Assembly: GCF_011759585.1 (NCBI RefSeq)
Contig: NZ_JAAOYV010000001.1
Span: 248,001 to 312,000, forward strand
Source: Frigoribacterium endophyticum
GTDB lineage: Bacteria; Actinomycetota; Actinomycetes; Actinomycetales; Microbacteriaceae
Length of the DNA: 64,000 nucleotides
Direction of reading: 5' to 3'
Below are positions 32,635 through 48,103 of this stretch, one piece after another. The position numbers and the translations under genes were made by a program. Numbering within the stretch: the stretch's first letter is position 1; each line of letters starts with the position of its first letter. The notes under the pieces are model-generated. The model did no database searches and was not told the origin of the DNA. It saw only the letters and a program-made list of their open reading frames with translations.

Positions 32635-35031
32635 TCAGCGGGCGATCGGGTTCGGCAGGGTGCCCGCGTAGATCAGCGACGACGACTGCGCCCCGAGGTC
32701 GACCATCTGCCTCGTGTCTCGCAGCTGCAGACGGTTCAGGCACGAGTGGTCGAACCGGGCCGCCCGCAGGTCGACGGCGCCGTGCAGCCCGGGGTGCTCG
32801 ACCGCGTGCCGGTCGACGCACTCCGCGACGAGCCGCCAGAAGAGCGCCTCCGGCAGCACCCGGTCGACGTCGAGGATCGCCGCGAGGTGCCGCAGCACCC
32901 CGTCGAAGACGTCGGTGAAGACGGCCAGCGCCTTCTCCCGGTCGTCGACCGGCGACACGACGCGGCGCAGCTCGGGCGGCAGCTCGTCGGGCGACGACGG
33001 CTCGGCGAGCAGGGCGACCTCCTCGCCGATGTCCTTCATCACGACGCCCGTGGGCACGTGGTCGCGCAGCACCGTGATCACGTTCTCGCCGTGCGGCATG
33101 AAGGCGAGGTCGTGGGCGAGCAGGCAGTGCACGACGGGCCGCAGGTAGGCGTGCAGGTACGACCGCAGCCACCGCTCGGCCCCGACGCCGGAGGCCCGGA
33201 TCATCGCCGTCGCCAGCGCGTGCCCGTCTCGGTCGCGGTGCAGCAGCGCCGCCATCGTCGCCAGCCGCTCGCCCGGGGCGAGCAGCGGCACCGGGCTCTC
33301 GCGCCAGAGCGCCGCGAGCATCTTCCGCTGCGGGGACGCCGTCGCGGTGCGGTGGTAGACGTCGCCGGTGTACCCCAGGGAGGCGCGCTCCCGGAGGACG
33401 CGGAACCGCGCCTCCCGCAGGGTCGGGTCCGCCGAGACGAGGTCGTGCACCCAGTCGTTGATCGCCGGCGTCGGCCGCATGTACTCGGGGGAGAGGCCGC
33501 GGAGGAACCCCATGTTCTGGATGGACAGGGCCACCTTGACGTAGCTGCGTTCGGGGTGCGTCGGGGCGAAGAACGTGCGGATCGACTGCTGCGCACGGTG
33601 CTCGACGTCGCCCTCGCCGAGCAGGACGAGGTCGCGGCGGGCGACGTCGGCGGCGAAGGTGACGGCGACGCGGTGCTGCCACTGCCACGGGTGCACCGGG
33701 AGGAGGTGGAAGTCGTCGGGGTCGAGGCCCCGGCCGCGGAGGGTCGCGGCGAAGCGCTCCAGCGTCTCGTCACCGAGCTCGGCACGGCGGTGCGCGGCCT
33801 CGTCGAGGCCCCGGCCGAGGGCGAGGTGCGCGTGGGCGCGCCGGGCCGCCAGCCAGAGCAGGCGCACGGGCTCGCCGTTCTCCGGGGCGAAGGCCCGCGA
33901 CTCGTCGAGCCCGAACCCGATCCGGCCCGCGTTCGCGACGAACGAGGGGTGCCCCTCGGTCATCGCCGCCTCGATGGTCGCGTGGTCGGCGGTCGTCAGC
34001 TGCTCGCTCGACGGCCCGCCCCGGTGGTGCTTGTGGGCGAGGCCGGCGAGGGTCGCCGAGACCTCCTCGAGGTAGGTGGCGAGGAGGTGCTCGGGCACGG
34101 CGAGGAGGGGCTGCAGCTCGACGACCAGCTCGAGGGCGTCGAGCGGGGCGGGGCGCCCGTCGACCGTGCGCGTCACGCTCGCCTCGTCGATCGCCCAGTG
34201 CTCGAGGGCGAGCCGCCGGGCGCGGAAGCGGTAGGCGACGGTCGGGGCCGGGGCCGGGGCCGGTGCCGGGGCCGGGGTCGGTGTCGGCGTCCGCGTCGGG
34301 GCGACGTCCGGCACCGCGGCCGTGCCCGCCGCCGCGTCGTGCCGCGGCAGCGCGCCGAGCACCACCTCGAACGCGTCGTCGCCCAGGTCGGCCGGCGCCA
34401 GCAGCCGCTCGTGCGAGAACTCGGCGAGGGCCTTCGTCACGAGGTGCCGGTGCGCGACCGCCATCGGCCCGGGCGCGAGGTGCGCCGCGGCACGGTCGTC
34501 GCGGGTCAGCACCGACAGGGCCGCACGCTTCTCGGGCAGCTCCAGCTCGCGCAGCACGCGGAAGCCCGCCTCGTCGTTCTTCGCCCTGATCGCCGCGTTG
34601 CGCACGTCGGGCTCGACGACCACCCTGGTCGCCCCCAGCCCGTCGAGCACGAAGCTCGTCACGGCGGCCATCACGGCGGAGGTCAGCCCGTGCACGCGTC
34701 GCTCGACCGGCGGAGCGACGAGCAGGTGCACGCCCACGTCGCCGGGGCGCACCTCGGGCACCCCCGCCAGCAGCACGCGCGTGGGGTCGTACGTCTCGAC
34801 GTAGAAGAGCGGCTCGCCGTCGACGCGGCCCAGCCAGGCCCGCTGGTGCGGGTCGGCCTCGATCGCGGCGAGGTGGGCGCGGACCTCGTCGGTGCTGAGG
34901 CCCGCCATGCCCCACCACGAGGAGGCGGGGTGCGAGAGCCAGCGCCGCAGCGGCACCGCGTGCGGGTGCGCCTCGAACGGCTCGATCGTGACCAGCCCGC
35001 ACGAGGCGCGGTGCTCGGCGACCGCGGTCAT
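32635..35031 (-). CDS. DesC-DesD fusion: acyltransferase plus NIS siderophore synthetase
   Basis: 798 residues. Residues 1-180 are a GNAT-type acyltransferase of the IucB/RhbD kind (GVHLLVAPPVERRVHGLTSAVM, then ATRVVVEPDVRNAAIRAKNDEAGF), which acylates N-hydroxycadaverine. From about 190 an IucA/IucC synthetase follows (EGHPSFVANAGRIGFG at 359-374, VHPWQW, GENVITVLRDH) that condenses and cyclises hydroxamate units with ATP. A proline-alanine stretch (232-264) is inserted inside the synthetase part. The two activities are separate genes desC and desD in Streptomyces. Last gene of a 3-gene operon, overlapping desB by 4 bp. Cytoplasmic. Confidence 0.9.
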   Translation of the reverse strand: MTAVAEHRASCGLVTIEPFEAHPHAVPLRRWLSHPASSWWGMAGLSTDEVRAHLAAIEADPHQRAWLGRVDGEPLFYVETYDPTRVLLAGVPEVRPGDVGVHLLVAPPVERRVHGLTSAVMAAVTSFVLDGLGATRVVVEPDVRNAAIRAKNDEAGFRVLRELELPEKRAALSVLTRDDRAAAHLAPGPMAVAHRHLVTKALAEFSHERLLAPADLGDDAFEVVLGALPRHDAAAGTAAVPDVAPTRTPTPTPAPAPAPAPAPTVAYRFRARRLALEHWAIDEASVTRTVDGRPAPLDALELVVELQPLLAVPEHLLATYLEEVSATLAGLAHKHHRGGPSSEQLTTADHATIEAAMTEGHPSFVANAGRIGFGLDESRAFAPENGEPVRLLWLAARRAHAHLALGRGLDEAAHRRAELGDETLERFAATLRGRGLDPDDFHLLPVHPWQWQHRVAVTFAADVARRDLVLLGEGDVEHRAQQSIRTFFAPTHPERSYVKVALSIQNMGFLRGLSPEYMRPTPAINDWVHDLVSADPTLREARFRVLRERASLGYTGDVYHRTATASPQRKMLAALWRESPVPLLAPGERLATMAALLHRDRDGHALATAMIRASGVGAERWLRSYLHAYLRPVVHCLLAHDLAFMPHGENVITVLRDHVPTGVVMKDIGEEVALLAEPSSPDELPPELRRVVSPVDDREKALAVFTDVFDGVLRHLAAILDVDRVLPEALFWRLVAECVDRHAVEHPGLHGAVDLRAARFDHSCLNRLQLRDTRQMVDLGAQSSSLIYAGTLPNPIAR

Positions 35032-36380
35032 CGGACCGTCACCCCCTCGGCGGCGGGGGCTCCCGGGGAGCCGACCCGCGACTCCTCGGTCGGCAGCCCG
35101 AACGTCTGGAAGGCGACCCGCCGCTCGACCGGGTAGACCTCGCGGCCGGTGATCGACGCGAGGATGCTCGAGCTGCGCCAGGCGCCCATGCCCAGGTCGG
35201 GCGCGGTGAGGCCGTGGGTGTGCTCCTCGCCGTTCTGCACGAAGAGGCGGCCGCGGCCGCCGTCGACGCTGTGGTCGCGGGCGACGGCGAGCCGCCCGCG
35301 GGTGTCGCGCTCGACCTGGTCGCCGAGCGGGTCGAGCACCGAGGTCGACCGCGGGGCGTACCCCGTCGCCAGCACGAGGGCGGCGGACTCCCGCACGGCC
35401 GTCGTGCCCAGCTGCGCGTGGCGGAGGGTCAGCGTGAAGAGCCCGCGGTCGGAGTCCCAGGCCGCGTCGACGAGCTCGGTCTCGGTGAGGAGGGTCGTGT
35501 CGAGCGGGCCGTCGACGCTGCGGCGGTAGAGCGTCTCGTGGACGTCGTCGACGAGGTCGCCGCTGATGCCCTTGTACAGGCTGCGCTGCTCGCGGCCGAG
35601 CCGGTCGCGCTCGGCGAGGGGGAGGCCGTGGAAGTGGTCGGTGTACTCGGGGCTCGTGAGCTCGAGGGTGAGCTTCGTGTACTCCATGGCGAAGAACCGG
35701 GGGGAGCGGGTGACCCAGTCGAGCCGGGCGCCGGAGCCCGCGACGCCCTCGCGCCCGACCCCGTCGAGCAGGTCGCGGTAGATCTCGGCCGCGGACTGCC
35801 CGCTGCCGACGATCGTCACGGAGGGCGCGTCACGCAGCCGGTCACGGGCGTCGAGGTAGTCGGCGCTGTGCACGACCGGGCCGTCGAGCCCGGTCAGGTG
35901 CGACGGGACGGCGGGCTCGGTGCCCGTGCTCAGCACCACGTGCCGGGTGCGCCAGGTCTCGTCGCCGGCGTGCACGAGCAGCGTCCCGTCGTCGAGGTCG
36001 GTGACGGCCGTCACGCGACGGCCCCAGCGCAGCGTGCCGAGCTGGTCGGCGACCCACCGGCAGTAGGCGTCGTACTCGACGCGGAGCGGGAAGAAGCTCT
36101 CGCGGACGTAGAACGGGTAGAGGCGCCCGGTCTGCTTCAACCATTCGAGGAAGGAGAACCGGGAGGTCGGGTCGGCCATCGTCACGAGGTCGGCCAGGAA
36201 GGGGACCTGGATGGTGGCGCCCTCGATCATCATGCCGGGGTGCCAGCGGAACCCGTCGGCCGCATCGAGGAAGACTGCGTCGAGGTCGTCGACGGGGTCG
36301 CTGAGGGCGGCGAGTCCGAGCCCGAAGGGGCCGAGGCCGACGCCGACCAGGTCGTGGACGTGCTCGGGGACGGCGCTCAT
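35028..36380 (-). CDS. desB: Cadaverine/lysine N-hydroxylase (flavin monooxygenase)
   Basis: 450 residues. FAD site GVGLGPFGLGLAAL (13-26), substrate/FAD region GMMIEGATIQVPFLADLVTMADPTS, NADPH site IVGSGQSAAEIY (190-201) and C-terminal LATGY: the IucD/PvdA/DesB family of N-hydroxylating monooxygenases. In a desferrioxamine pathway it hydroxylates cadaverine produced by DesA. Start overlaps the desA stop (ATGA) and its own stop overlaps the next start, so the three proteins are co-translated. Confidence 0.92.
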   Translation of the reverse strand: MSAVPEHVHDLVGVGLGPFGLGLAALSDPVDDLDAVFLDAADGFRWHPGMMIEGATIQVPFLADLVTMADPTSRFSFLEWLKQTGRLYPFYVRESFFPLRVEYDAYCRWVADQLGTLRWGRRVTAVTDLDDGTLLVHAGDETWRTRHVVLSTGTEPAVPSHLTGLDGPVVHSADYLDARDRLRDAPSVTIVGSGQSAAEIYRDLLDGVGREGVAGSGARLDWVTRSPRFFAMEYTKLTLELTSPEYTDHFHGLPLAERDRLGREQRSLYKGISGDLVDDVHETLYRRSVDGPLDTTLLTETELVDAAWDSDRGLFTLTLRHAQLGTTAVRESAALVLATGYAPRSTSVLDPLGDQVERDTRGRLAVARDHSVDGGRGRLFVQNGEEHTHGLTAPDLGMGAWRSSSILASITGREVYPVERRVAFQTFGLPTEESRVGSPGAPAAEGVTVR

Positions 36381-37918
36381 CGGACGACCGCCGCGCTGGC
36401 CGCGCCGTCGGTGCTGCCGACGTGCAGGGCGCTCGCCGCCTCGCGGACGAGGTCGAGCACCCCCTCGACGTCGGCCAGGGTCGTGTCGGGGTCGAGCAGC
36501 GTGAGCTTCAGGCACGGCCTCCCGTCGATCACCGTCTGCGCGACCGCGGCGCGCCCCGACTCGAACAGGGCGCGTCGGACGAGCGGCACGAGCCGGTCGG
36601 CCTCGGCGTCGTCCAGCCCCTCCGGGCGCCAGCGGAACAGGACCGTGCTCAGCTGCGTCTCGCCGATCAGCTCGAGGTCGTCGGAGGCGCGGACGGCCCC
36701 GGTCGCGGCCGCGCCCAGCTCGACGACGCGGTCGATCATCGCTCCCAGCCCGTCGGCACCGACGGCCCGCAGGGTCGCCCAGAGCTTGAGGGCGTCGAGC
36801 CGCCGGGTCGTCTGCAGCGACTTGTCGACCTGGTTCGGGTCGGCGGCGCCCACCGGGTTGAGGTAGTCGGCGTGCCAGGCGAGCGGCTCGAGGTCGGCCC
36901 GGTCTCGCACGACGAGCGCGCTCGACGACACGGGCTGGAAGAAGGTCTTGTGGAAGTCGACGGTGACCGACCGGGCCCGCTCGACGCCCTCGAGGAGGCG
37001 CCGCCGCGTCGTCGAGACCAGCAGGCCCCCGCCGTAGGCCGCGTCGACGTGCAGCCAGACGTCGGCGTCGTCGCAGACGTCGGCGATCGCGGCCAGCGGG
37101 TCGAGGCAGCCCCGGTCGGTCGTCCCCGCCGTCGCCACGACGGCGACGACGACGTGGCCGGCCTGGACGAGGGCGTCGAGGGTCACGCGGAGCGCGTCGG
37201 GCCGCATCCGGCCGAGGTCGTCGGTGGGCACGGCGACGACGCTGTCCGGCCCCAGGCCGAGCACCCGCGCGGCCGTCGAGACGCTGAAGTGGCTCTGGTC
37301 GGTGGCGAGCACCACCATCCGCTCGAGGACCTCGTGCAGGGAGCGCGGGCGCCGGTCGGGGCGTCGACCGGGCCCGCTCGTGCTCCTCAGCCGCGCCTCC
37401 TCGTCGAGGTCCTGACGTCGGGCCCGCCCGGCGGCGCGCTCGCGGGCCAGCAGCAGGGCGTGCAGGTTCGACTGCGTGCCGCCCGAGGTGAACACCCCGT
37501 CCGCGGTGTCGGCGGGGAGGCCGGCGCGCTCGGCCGTCCAGGCGATCAGCCGCCGCTCGACGAGGGTGCCGACGGTCGACTGGTCGTAGGTGTCGACCGA
37601 GGGGTTGACCGCGGCGAGCACGGCCTCGGCGGCCACCGCCGGCAGGGCGACCGGGCAGTTGAGGTGCGACTGGTAGGCCGGGTGGTGGAACCAGACGGCG
37701 TGTGCGGTGAAGAGCTCGTCCACCTCGCGGAGGGCGGCGTCGGTGCCGGTGCCGGGGCCGTCCAGGTCGACGGCGTCGACGAGGGCCTGGAGGTCGGCGC
37801 GGGGCACGCCCGACGACGGCTGGTCGACGACCCGGAACCGGTCGGCGAGGCGCTCGACGACGGCGGTCGTCGAGCGGGCGTAGGCGTCGGCCGTGGCGGC
37901 GGACAGGAGGTGGGTCAC
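36377..37918 (-). CDS. desA: PLP-dependent lysine (or diaminobutyrate-type) decarboxylase of siderophore synthesis
   Basis: 513 residues, group II decarboxylase fold. FTSGGTQSN (143-151) phosphate loop, HVDAAYGG (290-297) with the PLP-pyridine Asp, and DFHKTFFQP with PLP lysine K324. Adjacent hydroxylase and NIS synthetase make lysine to cadaverine for desferrioxamine the most likely reaction; sequence-similar enzymes use 2,4-diaminobutyrate. First gene of the operon, 54 bp downstream of a DtxR/IdeR-type iron box. Confidence 0.9.
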   Translation of the reverse strand: MTHLLSAATADAYARSTTAVVERLADRFRVVDQPSSGVPRADLQALVDAVDLDGPGTGTDAALREVDELFTAHAVWFHHPAYQSHLNCPVALPAVAAEAVLAAVNPSVDTYDQSTVGTLVERRLIAWTAERAGLPADTADGVFTSGGTQSNLHALLLARERAAGRARRQDLDEEARLRSTSGPGRRPDRRPRSLHEVLERMVVLATDQSHFSVSTAARVLGLGPDSVVAVPTDDLGRMRPDALRVTLDALVQAGHVVVAVVATAGTTDRGCLDPLAAIADVCDDADVWLHVDAAYGGGLLVSTTRRRLLEGVERARSVTVDFHKTFFQPVSSSALVVRDRADLEPLAWHADYLNPVGAADPNQVDKSLQTTRRLDALKLWATLRAVGADGLGAMIDRVVELGAAATGAVRASDDLELIGETQLSTVLFRWRPEGLDDAEADRLVPLVRRALFESGRAAVAQTVIDGRPCLKLTLLDPDTTLADVEGVLDLVREAASALHVGSTDGAASAAVVR

Positions 37919-40144: not shown

Positions 40145-40492
40145 CTAGCGCCCCTGGCGCTTCTTGAACGGCTTCGGCTGCCCCTTGACCGCCGGGGTGC
40201 GCCCCTTGCCCTTCGACGCCTTGGCCTTGCCGCCCGCCGGCACGGGGGGCGGCGGCGGGGGAGTCGAGGGGCTCGCGAGCTCCTCCTCGGCGACGAGGAT
40301 CGCGGCCTGACCCGCCTTCGTCAGCCGGTAGGGGCTGGCGTCGCGGTCGAACAGCTTGGTGCCGAACTCGAGCTCGAGCGCCTCGATCGACGACTCGAGC
40401 TTCTGGCGCGAGATGCCGAGCTTGTCGGCCGCGACCGGGAAGTGCAGCACCTCGGCCGCGACGAGGAAGTGCCTCAGGTGGCTGGTCTTCAC
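40145..40492 (-). CDS. Stand-alone LysR-type winged HTH with a basic tail (115 aa)
   Basis: The first 65 residues match only the LysR DNA-binding domain (VKTSHLRHFLVAAEVLHFPVAADKLGISRQKLESSIEALELEFGTKLFDR), with no co-inducer domain. Then come a Pro-rich linker (STPPPPPPVP) and a Lys-rich tail (KAKASKGKGRTPAVKGQPKP). GAGAGG lies upstream of GTG 40492. It may be a small nucleoid-like DNA-binding protein derived from LysR. Same strand as and 65 bp after the di-iron gene, so it may be co-transcribed. Confidence 0.7.
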   Translation of the reverse strand: MKTSHLRHFLVAAEVLHFPVAADKLGISRQKLESSIEALELEFGTKLFDRDASPYRLTKAGQAAILVAEEELASPSTPPPPPPVPAGGKAKASKGKGRTPAVKGQPKPFKKRQGR

Positions 40493-40557
40493 GGTGTCGC
40501 CTCTCGCTGGTCGGCCGGGTGCCCGACGCCCCAGACTACCGCCGACGACCGAGCGGC

Positions 40558-41385
40558 TCAGGCCACCGACACCCCGCCGGCGACCGGCGACGTGTGGCTG
40601 ACGCCGAGCCCGTCGAGCGCCTTCTGGAAGATCTTCAGCCCGGTCATGCCGGGCAGGTTCGAGATGTTCGAGTCGAGCTTCTCGGCGGCCTTGCGGCCTT
40701 CCTCGCCGCTCATCAGCTGGCCGAACACGAAGCGGACGTCGTCGATCTCCATGATCGACGAGCCGACCGGGGCCCAGACCTTCTGCAGCAGGAAGCGGGT
40801 CAGCTTCTGCGCCTTCTTGCTCTTGAGCAGCCGCTCGCGGGCCTGCGACACGTAGAAGGCCACGTGGCGCGACTCCTGGCGGGCGATGCGGACGAGCAGC
40901 TCTGCGAGGACCGGGTCCTTCTCGAGGGCGGCCATGCGCTTGTACGCGGCGACGGCCGAGTACTCGTTGGCGGCGCCCCACGACATGTGGACGGCGACGA
41001 AGTCCGAGCCGACGAACTTGCCGAGCAGGCCCTGCTTGACCGGGTCGAGCTTGTCGCGCCAGCCGAGCTTGAGTCGGTTCGCGCGCAGCTGGTCGTAGTC
41101 GACCTTGACGCCGTGGACCTCGAGGATGGCGGCGAGGGCCTCGCCGTGCCAGAACTCCTCGCGGTTCCACATCGTCATGAAGGTCGAGACGTCGCCCTCC
41201 TTGTGCGAGGGCGTCGTCAGCAGGTCACGGGTGTAGCACACGGTGTGGTACTCGACGTCGGCCATGTAGCGCAGGGTGCGGAGCGAGTCCGCGCTGAGCG
41301 GGTTCTCCTTGAAGTGGTCGAGGTCGAGGTCGTCCCACGTGATCCGCTCGCTGGTCGCGGCGAACTTGTCGATGTCGAATGCCAT
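40558..41385 (-). CDS. Ferritin-like di-iron protein, acyl-ACP-desaturase-like (complete ligand set)
   Basis: 275 residues. Four-helix-bundle ligands appear in the order and spacing of acyl-ACP desaturases: E45 (MADVEYHT), E77-x-x-H80 (NREEFWHGEAL, compare EENRHG in desaturases), E141 (ANEYSAVAAY) and E171-x-x-H174 (RQESRHVAF). This supports a carboxylate-bridged di-iron oxidase. Soluble. Lies 23 bp downstream of the acyl-reductase/HAD gene, so probably one operon. Candidate roles: acyl/alkyl desaturation or vinyl-ether formation (inference). Confidence 0.75.
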   Translation of the reverse strand: MAFDIDKFAATSERITWDDLDLDHFKENPLSADSLRTLRYMADVEYHTVCYTRDLLTTPSHKEGDVSTFMTMWNREEFWHGEALAAILEVHGVKVDYDQLRANRLKLGWRDKLDPVKQGLLGKFVGSDFVAVHMSWGAANEYSAVAAYKRMAALEKDPVLAELLVRIARQESRHVAFYVSQARERLLKSKKAQKLTRFLLQKVWAPVGSSIMEIDDVRFVFGQLMSGEEGRKAAEKLDSNISNLPGMTGLKIFQKALDGLGVSHTSPVAGGVSVA

Positions 41386-41408
41386 GTGGTGTCGGGAGGC
41401 GCGGGTCG

Positions 41409-43793
41409 TCAGACCTGCCCTCCGTCTCCTTTCCGTGTGGTGCTGCCGCCGGTCGTCGCTGTGACCGCGCCCCGGGCCCTGGCCCAGTCGCGGATGCTCC
41501 ATCTTCTTCGGAGCGCCTCGCGGGCGAGATTGGAGTCGGGGTTGACGGCGGACGGGTTGCCGAGCAGCTCCAACCAGGCGAGGTCGGCGTGGGAGTCACC
41601 GTACCCGTACGACCCCGTGAGGTCGATCTCGTTCTCCCGTGCCCACTGCGTCAGCCACGCAGCGCGGGCTTCGTCCACCAACGGCGGCTGGGCGAGGTAC
41701 CCGGTGAGCACTCCGTCGCGCTCGTGCATGGTGCTGCCGACGACCTCGTCGAACAGGTCGGCGATCGGCCCGGCGAGGGTCGCGATGGAGCCCGTGACCA
41801 GCACGGTCCGGTGACCGGCGGCACGGTGCTCCGCGATGCGGGCGAGCGCCTCGGGCAGGGTGTGGCGGCGCACGGCGTCGGCGTAGCCGCCGGAGCGCAC
41901 CACTCCGCGGAGGCGCGAGACGGGCATGCCGCTGTACCGCCTCAGGAAGCTGCGGATGAACTCGCCGCGATCACGCGACTCCGCCCGGAGGTAGGCCGGC
42001 AGGCCGGTCAGCAGCGACGCGACCTCGCCCGGCCAGGCCGCCTTGCGGAACCCGTTAGAGCGCACCCAGAGGTACTGCTCGACGATGTTCGAGTCGAGCA
42101 CCGTCCCCTCGAGGTCGAACACGGCGACCACGTCGGTGCGGGGCGGCAGCGGCCGGGTGTCGACGACGGCGCCGACCGCGGCGGGGCGCACCGAGAAGGC
42201 GCGCGTCATGGCCGTGATCGACGGGAAGTGCACGGTCTGGAAGTACTCCTCCCAGTCGATGTCGGTCACGTCGAAGCCGACGTCGGCGGGGGAGCCCTCG
42301 GGCAGCCCGTCGTGCAGCGCCCGGGTGCGGCGGTCGTCGAAGATGATCTCGGACTGCACGTAGTGGCGGTAGAGGTCGGTCAGGCTCTGCAGCGACTCGA
42401 GGTCGGCCCGCCGGGTCTGCACGTCGCTCAGCGCGGTGCGCGTGTGCTGGTTCGAGGGCAGGTGCGTGAGCACGCGCTCGCGCCAGTCGTTCGTCCGCTG
42501 CTTGAAGCGGATGGCGCCCTCGACCTTGCGCACGCCGGGGAAGTCCCAGTGCGGCACCGGGATGGTCGTGTGCTCGTCGCGCGGCAGCGGGTTCGCCGTG
42601 AAGAACGCGTTGAGGTTCTCGAACATGCGCAGGATGGGGAACGGGTTCGCGTTGCCCGACGCCACGTGGAAGTACTGCGCCTCGGGGCCCGCCGGAGTCG
42701 CGGTGCGGGTCGCCGGCACCGCCGCGGCCGCGTCGTCGGTCACCGGGCGCGCCGGGGGGTTCGCCCCGACCGCGAGGATGACGTTCACCACGAAGTCGAC
42801 GGGCACGATGTCGAGCACGCTGTCGGGCACCCCGGGGAACTCCGGCAGGAGCCCGCGGGCGTACGACATGATCAGCGGGTCGGCGACCTTGAAGCCGTCG
42901 ATCCAGCCCGGGTACGGGTGGCGGAGCGCGCTCTCGACGATGGCGGGGCGGACGACCGACAGGCGGTGGCCGTCGGCGGCCCACAGCTCCTCGGCGGCGC
43001 GCTCGGCGAAGGCCTTGGTGAGCGTGTAGACGTCCGTCCAGCCGAGGGTCTCGGCCCGGGTGCGGCCGTAGTCGACGAGACGGGCGGCGACCCAGGCGAC
43101 CCGCGCCTCCTCGGCGGCCGTCGCGACGGCCTGGGGCCCGGTCTTGCCGTGACGGGCGCGGCCCTCGGCGATGAAGCGGCGGAGGGTCTCGGGCTGCCGC
43201 GACGCGGCCTCGACGCGGGCGCGGGCGTCGCGGGCGGCAGCGTGCTCGGCGCGCCAGTCGACGGCGTGCGTGAGCGCCGCCTCGGGGAAGACGCCCTTGC
43301 GGATGCCGCCGACGTACGCGGTCGACACGTGCACGACGTGCGGGTCGCCGCCCGCGCGGCGCAGGGCCTCGTACAGGCCGACGGCCCCGCCGACGTTCGT
43401 GTCGAAGGCCTGGTCGATGGGCGGGTCGAACGAGACGGTCGACGCGCTGTGGATGACGACGTCGAGGTCGGCCGGCAGGTCGGGCAGCGAGCCGAGGCTG
43501 CTCTCGACGACGCGGAGCCGCTCGGTGAGCGCGCGCTCGACCTCGTCGGCGCCGACGCGCTCGCGCCAGCTCGCGAACACCGGCTTCTTGAGCAGGTGCC
43601 GCAGCCGACCGAGGGCCGGCGTGCCGGCCTTGGGCCGGATCAGCAGGGTGACCGTCGTGTCGGGGTGGGTCGAGAGCAGGCGCTCGAGGATCGCCTGGCC
43701 GACGAATCCGGTGCCGCCCGTGAGCAGCACGTGCGCCGAGCCGAGGCTGGCGACGGTGGAGCCCGGCGTGGCGGAGGGGAGGGGTGCGGTCAT
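41409..43793 (-). CDS. Fatty acyl reductase (extended SDR) fused to a HAD-IB phosphatase
   Basis: 794 residues. The N-terminal NAD(P) fold VLLTGGTGFVG (22-32), VSTAYVGG (156-163) and Y256-x-x-x-K260 (DVYTLTK), with the PVDFVVN and substrate segments, match fatty acyl-CoA/ACP reductases of the FAR type. A FAR C-terminal helical region spans about 430-540. From 555 a HAD-IB domain begins (VAVFDLEGT with nucleophile D560; the usual second Asp is E562), with VTGS and YGYGDSHADL motifs. The reductase should give fatty aldehyde/alcohol; the phosphatase substrate is unknown. Starts inside the stop of the upstream ferritin-like gene (4-bp overlap). Confidence 0.85.
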   Translation of the reverse strand: MTAPLPSATPGSTVASLGSAHVLLTGGTGFVGQAILERLLSTHPDTTVTLLIRPKAGTPALGRLRHLLKKPVFASWRERVGADEVERALTERLRVVESSLGSLPDLPADLDVVIHSASTVSFDPPIDQAFDTNVGGAVGLYEALRRAGGDPHVVHVSTAYVGGIRKGVFPEAALTHAVDWRAEHAAARDARARVEAASRQPETLRRFIAEGRARHGKTGPQAVATAAEEARVAWVAARLVDYGRTRAETLGWTDVYTLTKAFAERAAEELWAADGHRLSVVRPAIVESALRHPYPGWIDGFKVADPLIMSYARGLLPEFPGVPDSVLDIVPVDFVVNVILAVGANPPARPVTDDAAAAVPATRTATPAGPEAQYFHVASGNANPFPILRMFENLNAFFTANPLPRDEHTTIPVPHWDFPGVRKVEGAIRFKQRTNDWRERVLTHLPSNQHTRTALSDVQTRRADLESLQSLTDLYRHYVQSEIIFDDRRTRALHDGLPEGSPADVGFDVTDIDWEEYFQTVHFPSITAMTRAFSVRPAAVGAVVDTRPLPPRTDVVAVFDLEGTVLDSNIVEQYLWVRSNGFRKAAWPGEVASLLTGLPAYLRAESRDRGEFIRSFLRRYSGMPVSRLRGVVRSGGYADAVRRHTLPEALARIAEHRAAGHRTVLVTGSIATLAGPIADLFDEVVGSTMHERDGVLTGYLAQPPLVDEARAAWLTQWARENEIDLTGSYGYGDSHADLAWLELLGNPSAVNPDSNLAREALRRRWSIRDWARARGAVTATTGGSTTRKGDGGQV

Positions 43794-44611
43794 GCGGTGA
43801 GCTTTCGGGTCACGGTGGAGCCGACGCGGGCGTCGAGCCCCGGCAGGGCGGCGACGCGGTCGCCGACCGAGTCGGCGCGGAGGTGGCCCTCGGCCCCGCC
43901 CCAGACGACCGTGTCGAAGAAGGTGCGCTCGGAGTCGGCGCGCTCGATGGCACCGATCGGCCAGACGGCCTTCGCGAGGGAGGCGCGGGTCTGCTTGACG
44001 GCACGCGCCGAGTCGGCGAGGCGCCAGTGGGCCTCGAGGTCGAAGAACCGCTCGTGGCGGCGCTTGATCGCCCGGACGCGGTCGAGGACGGCGCTCAGCG
44101 CCGGGCTCGCGGCGCGGAGCTCGAGCACGTCGTAGGCCTCGCCGAGCACCCACTCGTCGACGAGCCCGGTGGTCATGTGCTCGGCGACGATCGGCACGCC
44201 CTTGTTGATCGCCTCGAGGGCGCGGGTGATCGGGCCGCGGCGCTCGGCGGCCTCGGAGGCGGCGTGGCGGCGCGGGCCCTCCTCGTCGTCACGGAGGCGC
44301 GGGCGGCCGTGCGCCTCGAGCACGGCGTCGAGGGCGTCGGCCAGCCAGAACTTCTCGAAGGCCCACGTGACGAGGAAGGCGGTGACGCGGGCGTCCTTGT
44401 GCGTCGCGGTGACGAGGAGGTTGCGGAGGTGCTCCATCGTGGCGGCCTCGAGCCGGCCGAGGTGGCGCAGCAGGCGCAGCTCGTCGTCGCCGAGCGGGGA
44501 GGCCTCGAAGGGCGTCAGGTCGAGCTCGGGGCGGAGGGTGCCCTGGGCGGTCAGGGTGAACTCGCGCATGTCGAACTCGGTGGTGTCGTAGGGGTCACCG
44601 TCGATCGTCAT
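43790..44611 (-). CDS. Ferritin-like paralogue with degenerate metal site
   Basis: 273 residues, clearly homologous to the protein at 40558 (DLTPFEASPLGDDELRLLR against DLDHFKENPLSADSLRTLR; FLVTWAFEKFWLADAL against FMTMWNREEFWHGEAL). E55 and E153 remain, but the E-x-x-H of helix 2 has become K87/L90, and helix 4 lacks the E-x-x-H. It therefore probably cannot hold two irons and may be a structural partner of the intact paralogue. ATG 44611 with GAGAGGATC upstream; first gene of the minus-strand operon. Confidence 0.7.
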   Translation of the reverse strand: MTIDGDPYDTTEFDMREFTLTAQGTLRPELDLTPFEASPLGDDELRLLRHLGRLEAATMEHLRNLLVTATHKDARVTAFLVTWAFEKFWLADALDAVLEAHGRPRLRDDEEGPRRHAASEAAERRGPITRALEAINKGVPIVAEHMTTGLVDEWVLGEAYDVLELRAASPALSAVLDRVRAIKRRHERFFDLEAHWRLADSARAVKQTRASLAKAVWPIGAIERADSERTFFDTVVWGGAEGHLRADSVGDRVAALPGLDARVGSTVTRKLTA

Positions 44612-44684
44612 GACCAGTGATCCTCTCGTGACGCGTTCGTGCGGGCGGGCGGGGCACGATGCACGCTGCGAGCCCTCAAGACCG

Positions 44685-44690
44685 TATCGT
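44685..44690 (+). promoter_or_regulatory. -10 element for a leaderless SDR transcript
   Basis: TATCGT ends 7 bases before the ATG at 44698 and no SD is present (AAGCGGC), the layout of actinobacterial leaderless mRNAs. Lies in the 86-bp divergent gap of the lipid cluster. Confidence 0.45.
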
Positions 44691-44697
44691 AAGCGGC

Positions 44698-45477
44698 ATG
44701 GCAACAGCGCTCGTCACCGGGGGCACGTCCGGCATCGGAGCCGAATTCGCCCGCCAACTCGCCGCACGTGGCTGGGACCTCGTCCTGGTCGCGCGTGACG
44801 CGACCCGACTCGACGAGACGGCCGCCGCGCTCCGCGCGACGGGCCGCCGGGTCGAGGTCCTCTCCGCCGACCTCGGCGACCGCTCCGACGTCGACCGGGT
44901 CGCCGCCCGGCTGGCCGACGAGGCCTCCCCGGTCGAGCTGCTCGTCAACAACGCCGGCTTCGGCGTGCACACGCCCCTGACGTCGGAGGACGTCGCGACG
45001 CACGACGCGGCGTTCGAGGTGATGGTCCGCAGCGTGCTGGTGCTGTCCGGGTCCGCGGCACGCGCCATGCGCCTCCGGGGCCGCGGCCGCATCGTCAACG
45101 TGTCGAGCACGGCCGGCTTCATGACCATGGGCGGCTACTCGGCCATCAAGGCCTGGGTGACCTCGTTCAGCGAGAGCCTGTCGGTCGAGCTGGCGGGCAC
45201 GGGCGTCGGCGTCACGGTGCTGCTGCCGGGCTGGGTGAAGACGGAGTTCCATCAGCGCGCCGGCATCCGGTCGTCGAGCATCCCGAACGCATTGTGGCTC
45301 GGCGCCGAACCACTGGTCGCCGCGTGCCTGCGCGACGTCGATGACAACAAGGTGGTCTCCATGCCCACGGTTCGGTACCGCGTGCTGTTCTGGTTGGTGC
45401 GGCACGCTCCGCGCAGCGTCGTGCGCCGCGTCTCGGGCGCCATCTCGTCGAGCCGTCGGAAGCCCGCGGAGTCGTGA
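44698..45477 (+). CDS. SDR of the ether-lipid cluster (candidate alkyl-/acyl-DHAP reductase)
   Basis: 259 residues, classical SDR: TGGTSGIG (7-14), NNAG (84-87), S136/S137, Y147 and K151 (GGYSAIK). The C-terminal basic segment (RYRVLFWLVRHAPRSVVRRVSG) is amphipathic and could hold the enzyme at the membrane, as in DHRS7B/AYR1-type lipid reductases. First of three tightly overlapping genes (SDR, acyltransferase, AGPS-like). Role in reducing alkyl-DHAP is inferred from context. Confidence 0.85.
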   Translation: MATALVTGGTSGIGAEFARQLAARGWDLVLVARDATRLDETAAALRATGRRVEVLSADLGDRSDVDRVAARLADEASPVELLVNNAGFGVHTPLTSEDVATHDAAFEVMVRSVLVLSGSAARAMRLRGRGRIVNVSSTAGFMTMGGYSAIKAWVTSFSESLSVELAGTGVGVTVLLPGWVKTEFHQRAGIRSSSIPNALWLGAEPLVAACLRDVDDNKVVSMPTVRYRVLFWLVRHAPRSVVRRVSGAISSSRRKPAES

Positions 45478-46400
45478 GCGACCCCAGCCGGCCCGGCCAC
45501 CCGCGGCGCGAGGCCGTCGCCCGCGCCGCGACCGACGTCACCGACCGCTTCAGCTCGCGCGGCCGGGCGATGGCCCGGTACGTCGCCCAGCGCGTCGTCC
45601 TCAAGCCGACGATCTGGTCGATCACGAGCGTCACCGTCATCGACCGCGACCGCCTCAAGGGCGTCGAGGGCGGCTTCATCGTGGTCGCGAACCACTCGAG
45701 CCATCTCGACGCGCCCCTCATTCTCGGCGCGCTGCCGCGCCGGCTCGCCCGCTACCTCGCCACCGGGGCCGCGGCCGACTACTTCTTCGACGTGCCGTGG
45801 CGCCGTCAGCTGACCGAGCTGTTCTTCAACGCCTTCCCCGTGCAGCGCGGCTCGTCGACCGCGACGCCCGCGGGCACGCCCGGCTCGGCGACGCCCCAGG
45901 CCCCCGGGGCCGTCGCCGCGGCGGCGGCCGCGGCCGCCGCGCACCCGTCGACCGGCGCGACGCCGGCGCAGTCCGCCGCCCGCCGCAAGGCCGCCGCGAA
46001 GTCGGCCGCCCGCAAGCGCGCCGGCCAGCCCACGGTCAGCGCCCGGTCGCTGCTCGAGCGCGGCTACCCCGTGCTGGTCTTCCCCGAGGGCACGCGCTCG
46101 AAGGACGGCTCGGTCGCCGCGTTCAAGCCCGGTGCCGCCGCGCTGTCGGCGGCGTGCGACGTGCCGATCATCCCCCTCGCCCTGATCGGGGCGCACATCG
46201 CCCACCCCCGCGGGTCGGCCTGGCCGAGGCCCGGCCGGCTGCCCGTCGGCGTGGCCTTCGGCGACCCGATGCGGCCCGAGCCCGGCGAGACGCCGGTGCA
46301 GTTCTCGGCCCGCCTGCGCGACGAGATCCTGCGTCTGAAGGACGCGAACACCGCCCGTATCCTGGGTCCCGAGACCCCGTCCGAAGGAGCACGACCGTGA
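45474..46400 (+). CDS. PlsC-type 1-acylglycerol-3-phosphate (or related) acyltransferase
   Basis: 308 residues from GTG 45474, overlapping the SDR stop. Motif I N73-H74-SSHL-D79 (catalytic His/Asp) and motif III FPEGTRS (203-209) are intact. Between them lies an Ala/Pro/Lys-rich low-complexity insertion of about 60 residues (127-187) absent from usual PlsC proteins. Expected to acylate a lyso-phospholipid or DHAP at the inner membrane face. Its stop overlaps the AGPS start (GTGA). Confidence 0.9.
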   Translation: MSDPSRPGHPRREAVARAATDVTDRFSSRGRAMARYVAQRVVLKPTIWSITSVTVIDRDRLKGVEGGFIVVANHSSHLDAPLILGALPRRLARYLATGAAADYFFDVPWRRQLTELFFNAFPVQRGSSTATPAGTPGSATPQAPGAVAAAAAAAAAHPSTGATPAQSAARRKAAAKSAARKRAGQPTVSARSLLERGYPVLVFPEGTRSKDGSVAAFKPGAAALSAACDVPIIPLALIGAHIAHPRGSAWPRPGRLPVGVAFGDPMRPEPGETPVQFSARLRDEILRLKDANTARILGPETPSEGARP

Positions 46401-48103
46401 CCGACGTCCAGAGCAAGCCGGAGACCGAGGTGCGCGACCACGGCGTCGCGCACATGAAGTGGTGGGGCTGGGGCGTCGAGGGCGTCGCCTTCCACCACGA
46501 CGACAAGCCGGGCTTCGCCCCGTTCGTCAAGAAGATCGTCGGCGTCGAGCTGTCGCAGGGCCAGCACGACACGGGCCTCGACTTCTCGCAGCTGACCGTC
46601 CCGGCCTCGCGCGCCTCCTCCGAGGTCGTCGACTCGCTCGTGCAGATCGTCGGCACCGAGCACGTCGACCAGGGCGACCACGACCGCGTCGTCCACACGT
46701 ACGGCAAGAGCATCCGCGACCTGATCCGCATCCGTGCGGGCGTCCTCGACCGGGTGCCCGACGTCGTCGTCTACCCGGCCGACGAGGCCGAGGTGCAGCA
46801 GATCGTCGACCTCGCCGTCGCGAGCGACGTCGTGCTCATCCCCTTCGGCGGCGGCAGCAACATCGTCGGCAGCCTCGAGCCGATGCCCACGGAGGAGCGC
46901 ACCGTCGTCTCGCTCGACATGGGCCGCCTCTCGAAGGTGCTCCACGTCGATGAAGACAGCGGTCTCGCCCGCATCCAGGCCGGCGGCCAGGGCCCCGACC
47001 TGGAGGAGCAGCTCAACGCCCGCGGCTGGACCCTCGGCCACTTCCCCGACAGCTTCACGCACTCGACGATGGGGGGCTGGGTCGCGACCCGCTCCTCCGG
47101 CATGCAGAGCGACAAGTACGGCGACATCGCCGACATCACCAAGGGGCTGCGCGTCGTCCGCCCCGGGGGCGTGCTCGTCATCCGGGCCGTGCCCAGCGCC
47201 TCCACCGGGCCGTCGCTCCGCGAGATGATCATCGGCTCCGAGGGGCGCCTCGGCGTCATCACCGAGGTCACCGCGCAGGTGCACCGCCTGCCCGAGAAGC
47301 GCGAGATCCTCGCCTACCTCTTCCCGTCGTGGCACGACGGCCTCGCGGCGATGCAGGCCATCGCCGAGAGCGACGCCCACCCGTCGGTGACGCGCGTCAG
47401 CGACGCCCACGAGACCGCGTTCTCGTTCGCGACCTCGAAGGAGAGCAAGGGCATCTCGAAGGTCGTCAACGACGCCCTGCCCAAGGTGCTGAAGGCCAAG
47501 GGCTGGGACGTCGAGGCGATGTGCCTGTCGTTCATCGGCTACGAGGGCAGCCCCGAGCACGTCGCCCAGACGCAGAAGGCCGTCGCCAAGATCGTGAAGG
47601 CGAACCGCGGCATGAGCGTCGGCAAGGGGCCGGGCAAGCTCTACGACCAGAAGAAGTTCGACACGCCCTACCTGCGCGACTTCTTCATGGACCACGGAGG
47701 CGCGGCCGACGTCAGCGAGACCGCCGCGCCGTGGTCGAAGCTGCGCGACGTCTCCGCCCGCGTCTACGCCGCGGCGAACCAGGCGTTCGACCAGATCGGC
47801 GTGCAGGGCTGGATCATGGGCCACCTGTCGCACTCGTACCACTCGGGGGCGTGCCTCTACTTCACCTTCGCCTTCGAGCACGGCGCCGACGCCGAGGCCG
47901 AGTACGACGTCGTGAAGCACGCGATCCAGCAGGCGTTCATCGACACCGGCGCGACCGTGTCGCACCACCACGGCGTCGGCCTCGAGCACGCCCCGTGGCT
48001 CGAGCAGGACGTCTCGACGCAGGGCATCCAGGTGATGCAGGGGCTGTTCGACTCGGCCGACCCGGGCCGCGTCTTCAACCCGGGCAAGATCACCGGCGCG
48101 TAG
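46397..48103 (+). CDS. Alkylglycerone-phosphate (alkyl-DHAP) synthase-like FAD enzyme
   Basis: 568 residues. MKWWGWG near the N-terminus and the FAD-binding PCMH domain (PFGGGSNIVGSLE; HSTMGGWVATRSSGM) are followed by the FAD-oxidase C domain with GHLSHSYHSGACLYFTFAF and the triple histidine SHHHGVG (H523-H525). These are the hallmark segments of alkyl-DHAP synthase (AGPS), which swaps the acyl chain of acyl-DHAP for a fatty alcohol to form the ether bond. Ends in a long hairpin terminator. With the reductase next door it gives the core of an ether-lipid pathway. Alternative: a generic FAD-linked oxidase, less likely given the motifs. Confidence 0.88.
   Translation: MTDVQSKPETEVRDHGVAHMKWWGWGVEGVAFHHDDKPGFAPFVKKIVGVELSQGQHDTGLDFSQLTVPASRASSEVVDSLVQIVGTEHVDQGDHDRVVHTYGKSIRDLIRIRAGVLDRVPDVVVYPADEAEVQQIVDLAVASDVVLIPFGGGSNIVGSLEPMPTEERTVVSLDMGRLSKVLHVDEDSGLARIQAGGQGPDLEEQLNARGWTLGHFPDSFTHSTMGGWVATRSSGMQSDKYGDIADITKGLRVVRPGGVLVIRAVPSASTGPSLREMIIGSEGRLGVITEVTAQVHRLPEKREILAYLFPSWHDGLAAMQAIAESDAHPSVTRVSDAHETAFSFATSKESKGISKVVNDALPKVLKAKGWDVEAMCLSFIGYEGSPEHVAQTQKAVAKIVKANRGMSVGKGPGKLYDQKKFDTPYLRDFFMDHGGAADVSETAAPWSKLRDVSARVYAAANQAFDQIGVQGWIMGHLSHSYHSGACLYFTFAFEHGADAEAEYDVVKHAIQQAFIDTGATVSHHHGVGLEHAPWLEQDVSTQGIQVMQGLFDSADPGRVFNPGKITGA

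Follow-up and report, generated by a model that had tools for sequence, protein, structure and literature searches.

The window analysed here is a stretch of 64,000 nucleotides from Frigoribacterium endophyticum (contig NZ_JAAOYV010000001.1, positions 248,001 to 312,000). Positions 40145-48103 of this window hold seven genes, six of which form a conserved cluster that probably encodes a complete aerobic pathway to ether phospholipids, with plasmalogens as the probable end product. The minus strand carries fer2 (43790-44611), the fatty acyl reductase gene FAR (41409-43793) and fer1 (40558-41385), followed by a small gene for a LysR-type helix-turn-helix (HTH) domain (40145-40492). On the plus strand, a short-chain dehydrogenase/reductase (SDR) gene (44698-45477), a PlsC-family acyltransferase gene (45474-46400) and a gene for an AGPS-like FAD enzyme (46397-48103) follow one another. 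The genes overlap by 4 bases at the FAR/fer2, SDR/PlsC and PlsC/AGPS junctions, and a gap of 86 bases separates the two divergent operons. An earlier reading made from the letters of this DNA (the sequence-only reading) had described two divergent, tightly overlapping operons with five named enzymes, namely an acyl reductase, an alkyl-dihydroxyacetone phosphate (alkyl-DHAP) synthase-like enzyme, an SDR, a PlsC acyltransferase and a di-iron ferritin-like oxidase, and all of this is borne out. The analysis adds fer2 inside the operon, a HAD domain at the C-terminus of FAR and the LysR HTH-only gene. The earlier observation is thus right but incomplete, and its interpretation is partly supported.

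FAR combines an NAD_binding_4 domain (PF07993, E 8.6e-45) with a C-terminal HAD-IB domain (PF12710, E 1.3e-30). Its residues 16-527 match the fatty acyl-CoA reductase of PDB entry 7eoz (E 6.3e-45), and the motifs TGGTGFVG and VYTLTK are found at residues 25 and 255. The Sterile domain is weak, with 29.5 bits under a cut-off of 35.4. In the HAD motif FDLEGT at residue 559, a glutamate stands where DxD is usual. Among 17 rows of distant FARs, 13 show the pattern, and these too have a glutamate at the second acidic place. The HAD domain is perhaps an alkyl/acyl-glycerophosphate phosphatase. The SDR (PF00106, E 2e-43), a candidate alkyl-DHAP reductase, has the motifs TGGTSGIG at residue 7 and YSAIK at residue 147; its nearest NCBIfam model is mycolate_SDR, at 152 bits under a cut-off of 380. 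The PlsC-family protein (PF01553, E 1.9e-20; PDB 5kym PlsC, E 1.2e-13), with NHSSHLD at residue 73 and FPEGTRS at residue 203, is a candidate DHAP acyltransferase, or possibly an sn-2 acyltransferase. Judged by their sequences, both are ordinary members of their families.

The FAD enzyme is the candidate alkyl-DHAP synthase. In a phmmer search of the PDB, it matches Dictyostelium ADPS (2uuu) with E 7.9e-118 and 397.6 bits and mammalian AGPS (4bby) with E 3.8e-85, against E 3.3e-21 and 78.7 bits for the best D-lactate dehydrogenase. The assignment to the AGPS type, which the sequence-only reading had weighed against a lactate/glycolate oxidase, therefore stands by alignment scores, and the oxidase identity is rejected on the same scores. 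The motifs HSTMGGWVATR and SHHHGVG, already pointed out in that reading, lie at residues 222 and 522. The printed PDB alignment shows that the equivalents of mammalian R419, E471, R515, Y578 and H615-617 are kept; their functional roles are taken over from mammalian AGPS. Among 83 distinct AGPS rows (of 90 matches), the equivalents of the catalytic residues are conserved at 98% or more. In two loci, L062 (Frondihabitans sucicola) and L118 (Arenivirga flava), the AGPS gene lies in two frames, through either a frameshift or a sequencing error.

The two ferritin-like proteins differ in their metal sites. In fer1, the di-iron ligands E45, E77xxH80, E141 and E171xxH174 are all present in 59 of 60 rows (31/31 rows from clusters, 11/11 from orphan fer2-fer1 pairs, 2/2 others and 15/16 distant rows), the remaining row being gapped at E45. 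In fer2, three of the six ligands are lost in 40 of 41 rows. The 29 rows from clusters have lysine in place of E77 and isoleucine, leucine or methionine in place of H80 throughout, and E171 is replaced by lysine in 28 and by arginine in one. The same three places are altered in 12 further rows (11 orphan loci and Actinoplanes), in one of them by E171 to aspartate. Row f2_L122, a copy of fer1, had been removed from this alignment beforehand. Across 41 loci, the mean pairwise identity is 73% for fer1 and 46% for fer2, fer2 having the lower value in 819 of the 820 pairs, so by sequence fer2 diverges faster than its paralogue. Since fer1 keeps the di-iron ligands and the metal site of fer2 is lost, fer1 is probably the catalytic subunit and fer2 a structural pseudo-enzyme partner, the two presumably forming a complex, perhaps a dimer. 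The di-iron oxidase of the sequence-only reading is thus present, but a pair probably takes the place of the single protein. Two equal oxidases would be too simple a description and were rejected, the metal site of fer2 being lost.

The fold of the pair can be placed only in broad terms. fer1 scores 19.9 bits with the Pfam model FA_desaturase_2 (PF03405), below its cut-off of 22.7; fer2 is matched by no model of Pfam (threshold E<=1) or of NCBIfam (threshold E<=0.01). The AlphaFold2 models of fer1 and fer2 are of good confidence (pLDDT 84.5 and 89.5, respectively). With Foldseek, fer1 has no match at E<=1e-3, and its eleven best matches are plant acyl-acyl carrier protein (acyl-ACP) desaturases (E 1.2e-3 to 5.2e-3, query template-modelling score 0.53-0.62). 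The matches of fer2 are also weak (best E 4.4e-3) and show the R2-like/desaturase fold, with R2-like oxidases first. fer1 thus shares a fold, by weak matches, and the pattern E...ExxH...E...ExxH with acyl-ACP desaturases and R2-like oxidases. Unlike acyl-ACP desaturases, it remains under the Pfam cut-off and is usually paired with a metal-dead paralogue.

The gene-neighbourhood comparison that the sequence-only reading had proposed was made on the best 80 of 254 fer1 relatives, the nearest named ones being Frigoribacterium. All six genes occur in one order and orientation in 63 of these 80 named loci, which argues that the arrangement is not due to chance. Among the 63, the contig of L123 breaks off after just 32 residues of AGPS, and a second, distant match to the SDR turns up in one locus. 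The remaining 17 comprise 11 fer2-fer1 pairs lacking FAR and AGPS (Agromyces, Leifsonia, Glaciibacter flavus and Humibacter), two loci with fer1 alone (L076, and L117 at 1.6 kb from a contig end), two short contigs with part of FAR (L120 and L124), one locus at a contig end that lacks only AGPS (L128), and L096 from Actinoplanes. In L117 (Jiangella ureilytica), fer1 (1606-2403) is 64% identical to the cluster type and keeps the six ligands, and the 12-kb locus has no fer2. The short contig L120 (1770-4305) has the order fer1, fer2-like gene, FAR, as opposed to fer2-FAR-fer1 elsewhere.

FAR, AGPS and fer1 travel together in the family Microbacteriaceae. FAR is found in 41 of 150 family genomes; an AGPS orthologue (at least 60% identity) is present in 40 of these 41 and in none of the 109 genomes without FAR, and fer1 (E <1e-100) in 39 of 41 versus 5 of 109, the overlaps being counted by hand from the listings. 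Weaker fer matches in G113, G045 and G092 were excluded from these counts. G113, a fragmented genome, has FAR, no fer1 and only a fer2-like match.

From these enzyme families a pathway of five steps can be proposed. FAR would reduce acyl-coenzyme A or acyl-ACP, mostly with branched C15-C17 chains, to a fatty alcohol, and PlsC would acylate DHAP. The AGPS-like flavoenzyme would then exchange the acyl group for the alcohol to give 1-alkyl-DHAP, and the SDR would reduce this product to 1-alkyl-glycerol-3-phosphate, which could feed ordinary phospholipid synthesis. In the last step, the O2-dependent di-iron protein fer1, with fer2 as its partner, would desaturate the alkyl ether at C1'-C2' to a vinyl ether. 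It is likely that alkyl ether lipids are made. That fer1 and fer2 act on such an ether lipid seems probable, and the chances that the product is a vinyl ether formed by them as the desaturase are about even.

By family, FAR, PlsC, AGPS and SDR supply the same four activities as the animal peroxisomal pathway (FAR1, GNPAT, AGPS and acyl/alkyl-DHAP reductase). The bacterial version differs in being gathered in one 8-kb locus, in the FAR-HAD fusion and in its PlsC-family acyltransferase. In animals and myxobacteria, vinyl-ether desaturation is carried out by CarF/PEDS1, and the sequence-only reading had seen no CarF-like gene in the window. A search with Lipid_desat (PF10520; CarF/TMEM189/PEDS1) agrees with it, as neither the genome of the window nor any other of the 45 genomes searched gave a match, a soft negative because the model matched none of the 14 control genomes either; PF10520 also gives no match to fer1 itself at E<=1. 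The ether lipids of myxobacteria (elb operon; MXAN_1676-1674; CarF) are likewise made by aerobes, and AGPS, FAR, an acyltransferase and a HAD protein occur there too, according to the available part of PMC9131029. There, multidomain ElbD is the main enzyme and CarF the desaturase, whereas here AGPS is clustered and the only clustered oxidase is the ferritin-like pair. The same source, in the part available, treats plasmalogens as all but confined to myxobacteria among the aerobic bacteria. The anaerobic PlsA/PlsR route, as outlined in the accessible part of PMC9702350, could lead to the same end product and is reductive, starting from diacyl lipids.

Dimethylacetals (DMAs) arise from vinyl ethers upon methanolysis and connect the cluster with published lipid profiles. 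Judging by retention values, the "14:0 2-OH" of some profiles of the family is possibly a misread anteiso-15:0 DMA. The sequence-only reading had mentioned DMAs from some Microbacteriaceae, and the published profiles, as far as the sources are available, confirm this. Subtercola species contain up to 17% iso-C16:0 DMA, plus others, and Agreia contains iso-C15:0 DMA at <=4% (PMC5945732); 15:0 anteiso aldehyde/DMA is reported for F. faeni and strain D8 (PMC12823222). The main acids in both sources are mostly branched C15-C17, and yet "14:0 2-OH" amounts to 17% in Frigoribacterium D8 (PMC12823222) and 10% in Subtercola lobariae (PMC5945732). The full cluster is present in F. faeni NBRC 103066 (L055) and in Agreia bicolorata and A. 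pratensis (L077 and L090). The correlation between cluster and DMAs that the sequence-only reading had suggested thus holds for two genera, Frigoribacterium (F. faeni) and Agreia, and fails for Frondihabitans; Subtercola and D8 lie outside the comparison. In the open-access literature, a search for DMA reports in other Microbacteriaceae gave only the Subtercola and Frigoribacterium papers among the matches listed, no proposed genes for the DMAs of this family were found, and there were no published actinobacterial AGPS or plasmalogen genes among the matches listed. The cluster offers candidate genes for these DMAs and, in fer1/fer2, a concrete candidate for a vinyl-ether desaturase other than CarF.

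Several observations weigh against a plasmalogen pathway that ends with fer1 and fer2. Frondihabitans carries the cluster (L062, L063 and L072, the AGPS of L062 being split over two frames) and is described as having no dimethyl acetals in the available part of PMC5945732. Two other Frigoribacterium species, which may or may not have the cluster, are given as free of DMA in the available part of PMC12823222. G101 (locus L036) possesses FAR-SDR-PlsC-AGPS and neither fer1 nor fer2. No enzyme of known reaction is more than a distant relative of fer1, and the CarF negative is soft, as noted. FA_desaturase (PF00487) occurs in 43 of the 45 genomes and could do the desaturation there. PlsA/PlsR is reported from several actinobacterial orders (PMC9702350, in the part available), so another route to vinyl ethers is possible.

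The orphan fer2-fer1 pairs are a further point on this side, since a monophyletic group that keeps the pair with neither FAR nor AGPS in the locus implies that fer1/fer2 can be useful outside the pathway. A quick tree was built from 102 rows, with approximate likelihood-ratio (SH-aLRT) support as the only measure and long branches flagged. In it, the 11 fer1 sequences of the orphan pairs make up a single group (84) that is nested inside the cluster fer1. The orphan fer2 rows are likewise grouped (92), and the deeper nodes have 99 for fer1 and 100 for fer2. This nesting implies that the pair was tied to FAR and AGPS first and that one lineage later lost the rest. The orphans therefore weaken a strict one-function reading of fer1/fer2, yet they do not favour an independent origin. 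Among the five orphan-pair genomes that were searched, no FAR turned up; the sole match was a weak one to the HAD part. With respect to their surroundings, an epoxide-hydrolase-like gene, named from its sequence, precedes fer2 in L071 (Leifsonia), L031 and L032. The Agromyces pairs L064, L069 and L087 lie near msrA/msrB-like genes; the first two also have a flavin-reductase-like gene nearby, all these names being read from sequence. For the self-contained pathway claimed by the sequence-only reading, the four-step alkyl-ether logic stands by enzyme families; its strict form does not, given the orphan clade and Frondihabitans.

An acyl desaturase, an alpha-hydroxylase and an aldehyde oxygenase were considered as functions of fer1. 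The most serious alternative is that the cluster makes saturated alkyl ethers only, that fer1/fer2 act on another lipid such as a fatty acyl chain, and that any vinyl ether comes from FA_desaturase or PlsA/PlsR. This explanation is a tentative one. It would account for the orphan pairs in 11 of the 80 named loci, for solitary fer1 homologues of distant Actinomycetota that are not linked to FAR, and for the similarity of fer1 to acyl-ACP desaturases, and the wide occurrence of FA_desaturase fits it as well. However, the orphans are a single derived clade inside cluster-linked fer1, so the link with FAR/AGPS is older, and 17 of the 19 distant genomes with fer1 have this type of FAR. Two genomes, G041 (98% complete) and G130 (96% complete), bear the cluster and lack FA_desaturase, and DMAs are reported, in the sources as far as available, from cluster-bearing genera.

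It is improbable that fer1/fer2 act on the fatty aldehyde of FAR in the manner of an aldehyde-deformylating oxygenase, producing alkanes or keeping the aldehyde in check, with the alcohol left to AGPS. The position of a di-iron ferritin-like protein beside an acyl reductase does bring to mind the cyanobacterial pair of acyl-ACP reductase and aldehyde-deformylating oxygenase (AAR/ADO). But no such oxygenase is among the best 50 of 340 Foldseek matches, which acyl-ACP desaturases and R2-like oxidases lead, and the lack of FAR in the five orphan-pair genomes also speaks against it. A lactate/glycolate-type dehydrogenase in a cluster for wax esters or another fatty-alcohol product is very improbable. 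In its favour, the best NCBIfam model of the FAD enzyme, although sub-threshold, is glcD (129.5 versus a cut-off of 568 bits). Against it, the scores are 398 bits to ADPS versus 79 to D-lactate dehydrogenase, SHHH and the R419, R515 and Y578 equivalents are kept in 83 rows, and FAR is present in 40 of 40 family genomes with the FAD enzyme.

The proposed plasmalogen pathway of the cluster may have a relative elsewhere in the phylum, built around a LarA-like nickel-pincer enzyme. Outside the family, fer1 homologues were found in 19 of 396 phylum genomes. By coordinates, no FAR lies within 20 kb of the distant fer1 in any of the 19 (two of the loci, L178 and L186, are poorly called). This type of FAR is nevertheless carried elsewhere in 17 of the 19 genomes, compared with 93 of 396 overall; G287 has only the first part of FAR, at a contig end. 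When the family's own genomes are included, FAR is present in 18 of 22 genomes with fer1 and in 75 of 374 others (Fisher p 4e-9, uncorrected for kinship). The distant FAR-HAD lies in an operon with MDR, a LarA-like gene and PlsC (L192-L228, plus L096). Of the 37 loci read, 35 have MDR and 32 have LarA, the others being at contig ends, and ten of the first 17 also include a TetR gene. A LarA orthologue occurs in 86 of 93 FAR genomes, and FAR in 86 of 90 LarA genomes, a total from which 14 weaker LarA matches (37-44% identity), all in FAR-less genomes, were left out. The seven FAR genomes lacking LarA are that of the window, which has AGPS, and six others that are 62-94% complete. In 31 of 40 genomes hand-chosen from the 86, FAR and LarA are at most 1.8 kb apart.

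The LarA-like proteins of the operon match Lar_N (E 1.4e-39; present in both of the two scanned) and a LarA-like PDB entry (E 4.8e-38). H124, K199, H214 and H215 are invariant in 32 of 32 rows, and their places agree with the PDB alignment. Their roles, including a lysine binding the nickel-pincer nucleotide (NPN) cofactor and a catalytic histidine, are taken over from lactate racemase. LarC, the nickel-insertion protein of NPN biosynthesis, was sought in three sets of genomes: it is present in all 19 LarA genomes tested, in 6 of 14 controls and in none of 61 Microbacteriaceae. In contrast to the LarA of lactate racemase, the distant operon proteins have lipid enzymes as partners; the family is absent from the genome of the window.

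Both modules meet in three Microbacteriaceae loci among 115 searched, not all of which have clusters. There, a LarA-like gene (L046:12598-14055, L138:12231-13664 and L139:5984-7537) and a second PlsC gene are located between FAR and fer1 of the AGPS cluster. K199 is changed to alanine and H124 to arginine in all three proteins, H215 is a glycine, a gap or a threonine, and no LarC was found in the three genomes. These losses beside AGPS suggest that AGPS has displaced LarA. In Actinoplanes L096, FAR-MDR-LarA-PlsC stands opposite LarB-LarC-fer2-fer1, with no AGPS within 20 kb. The fer1 of L096 groups with Frigoribacterium and Frondihabitans (SH-aLRT 98), so the fer2-fer1 pair has probably moved into Actinoplanes and joined the nickel module there. 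The co-occurrence, the three hybrid loci and L096 together suggest that AGPS with SDR and LarA with MDR are alternatives for the step or steps after FAR. A complication is G420, where a gene resembling AGPS (34%) and a FAR of the LarA type are about 4 kb apart and LarA is on another contig.

On this basis, a second ether-lipid route in Actinomycetota can be put forward as a speculation that is rather unlikely to hold in full. FAR-HAD, MDR, LarA and PlsC would be ancestral, and the flavin module (AGPS, SDR and PlsC) would have displaced LarA in the family of the window, leaving the dead LarA as a fossil. fer1, later doubled by fer2, would serve both routes as a non-CarF vinyl-ether desaturase. 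As a hypothetical former of the ether bond, LarA might oxidise the fatty alcohol to the aldehyde, to which a hydroxyl of glycerol or DHAP adds before the hydride is returned to the oxocarbenium ion. In another variant, it might transiently oxidise C2 of acyl-glycerophosphate and so enable an exchange of the AGPS type. Alternatively, the operon could belong to a long-chain 1,2-diol pathway, with LarA acting on 2-hydroxy acids, or could use the alcohol in another way. No paper on LarA with lipids is among the matches listed from the open-access literature. If the displacement is real, a nickel cofactor known from racemases would also serve lipid synthesis throughout deep Actinomycetota.

The LysR-type gene adjoining fer1 downstream is probably not part of the conserved cluster. 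It encodes 115 residues, an HTH_1 domain (PF00126, E 2.2e-13) and a low-complexity tail rich in lysine and proline, with no effector domain. Among the 80 named loci, those of twelve Frigoribacterium isolates (L051-L061 and L066) are the only ones with this gene next to fer1, and two metagenome-assembled genomes titled Frigoribacterium (L085 and L086) lack it there; one more match (47%), unlinked, occurs in L105. When 301 bases spanning the intergenic region of the divergent operons were scanned for promoters and terminators, none came up, and none were expected. The flanks of the cluster seem unrelated to it. On one side lie cysK/cysE-like genes, named by reading their translations only, and on the other RtcB and siderophore genes. 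The latter form a hydroxamate-type siderophore operon on the minus strand (32635-37918), consisting of an IucA/IucC-GNAT-FhuF fusion, a lysine/ornithine monooxygenase and a pyridoxal phosphate-dependent decarboxylase.

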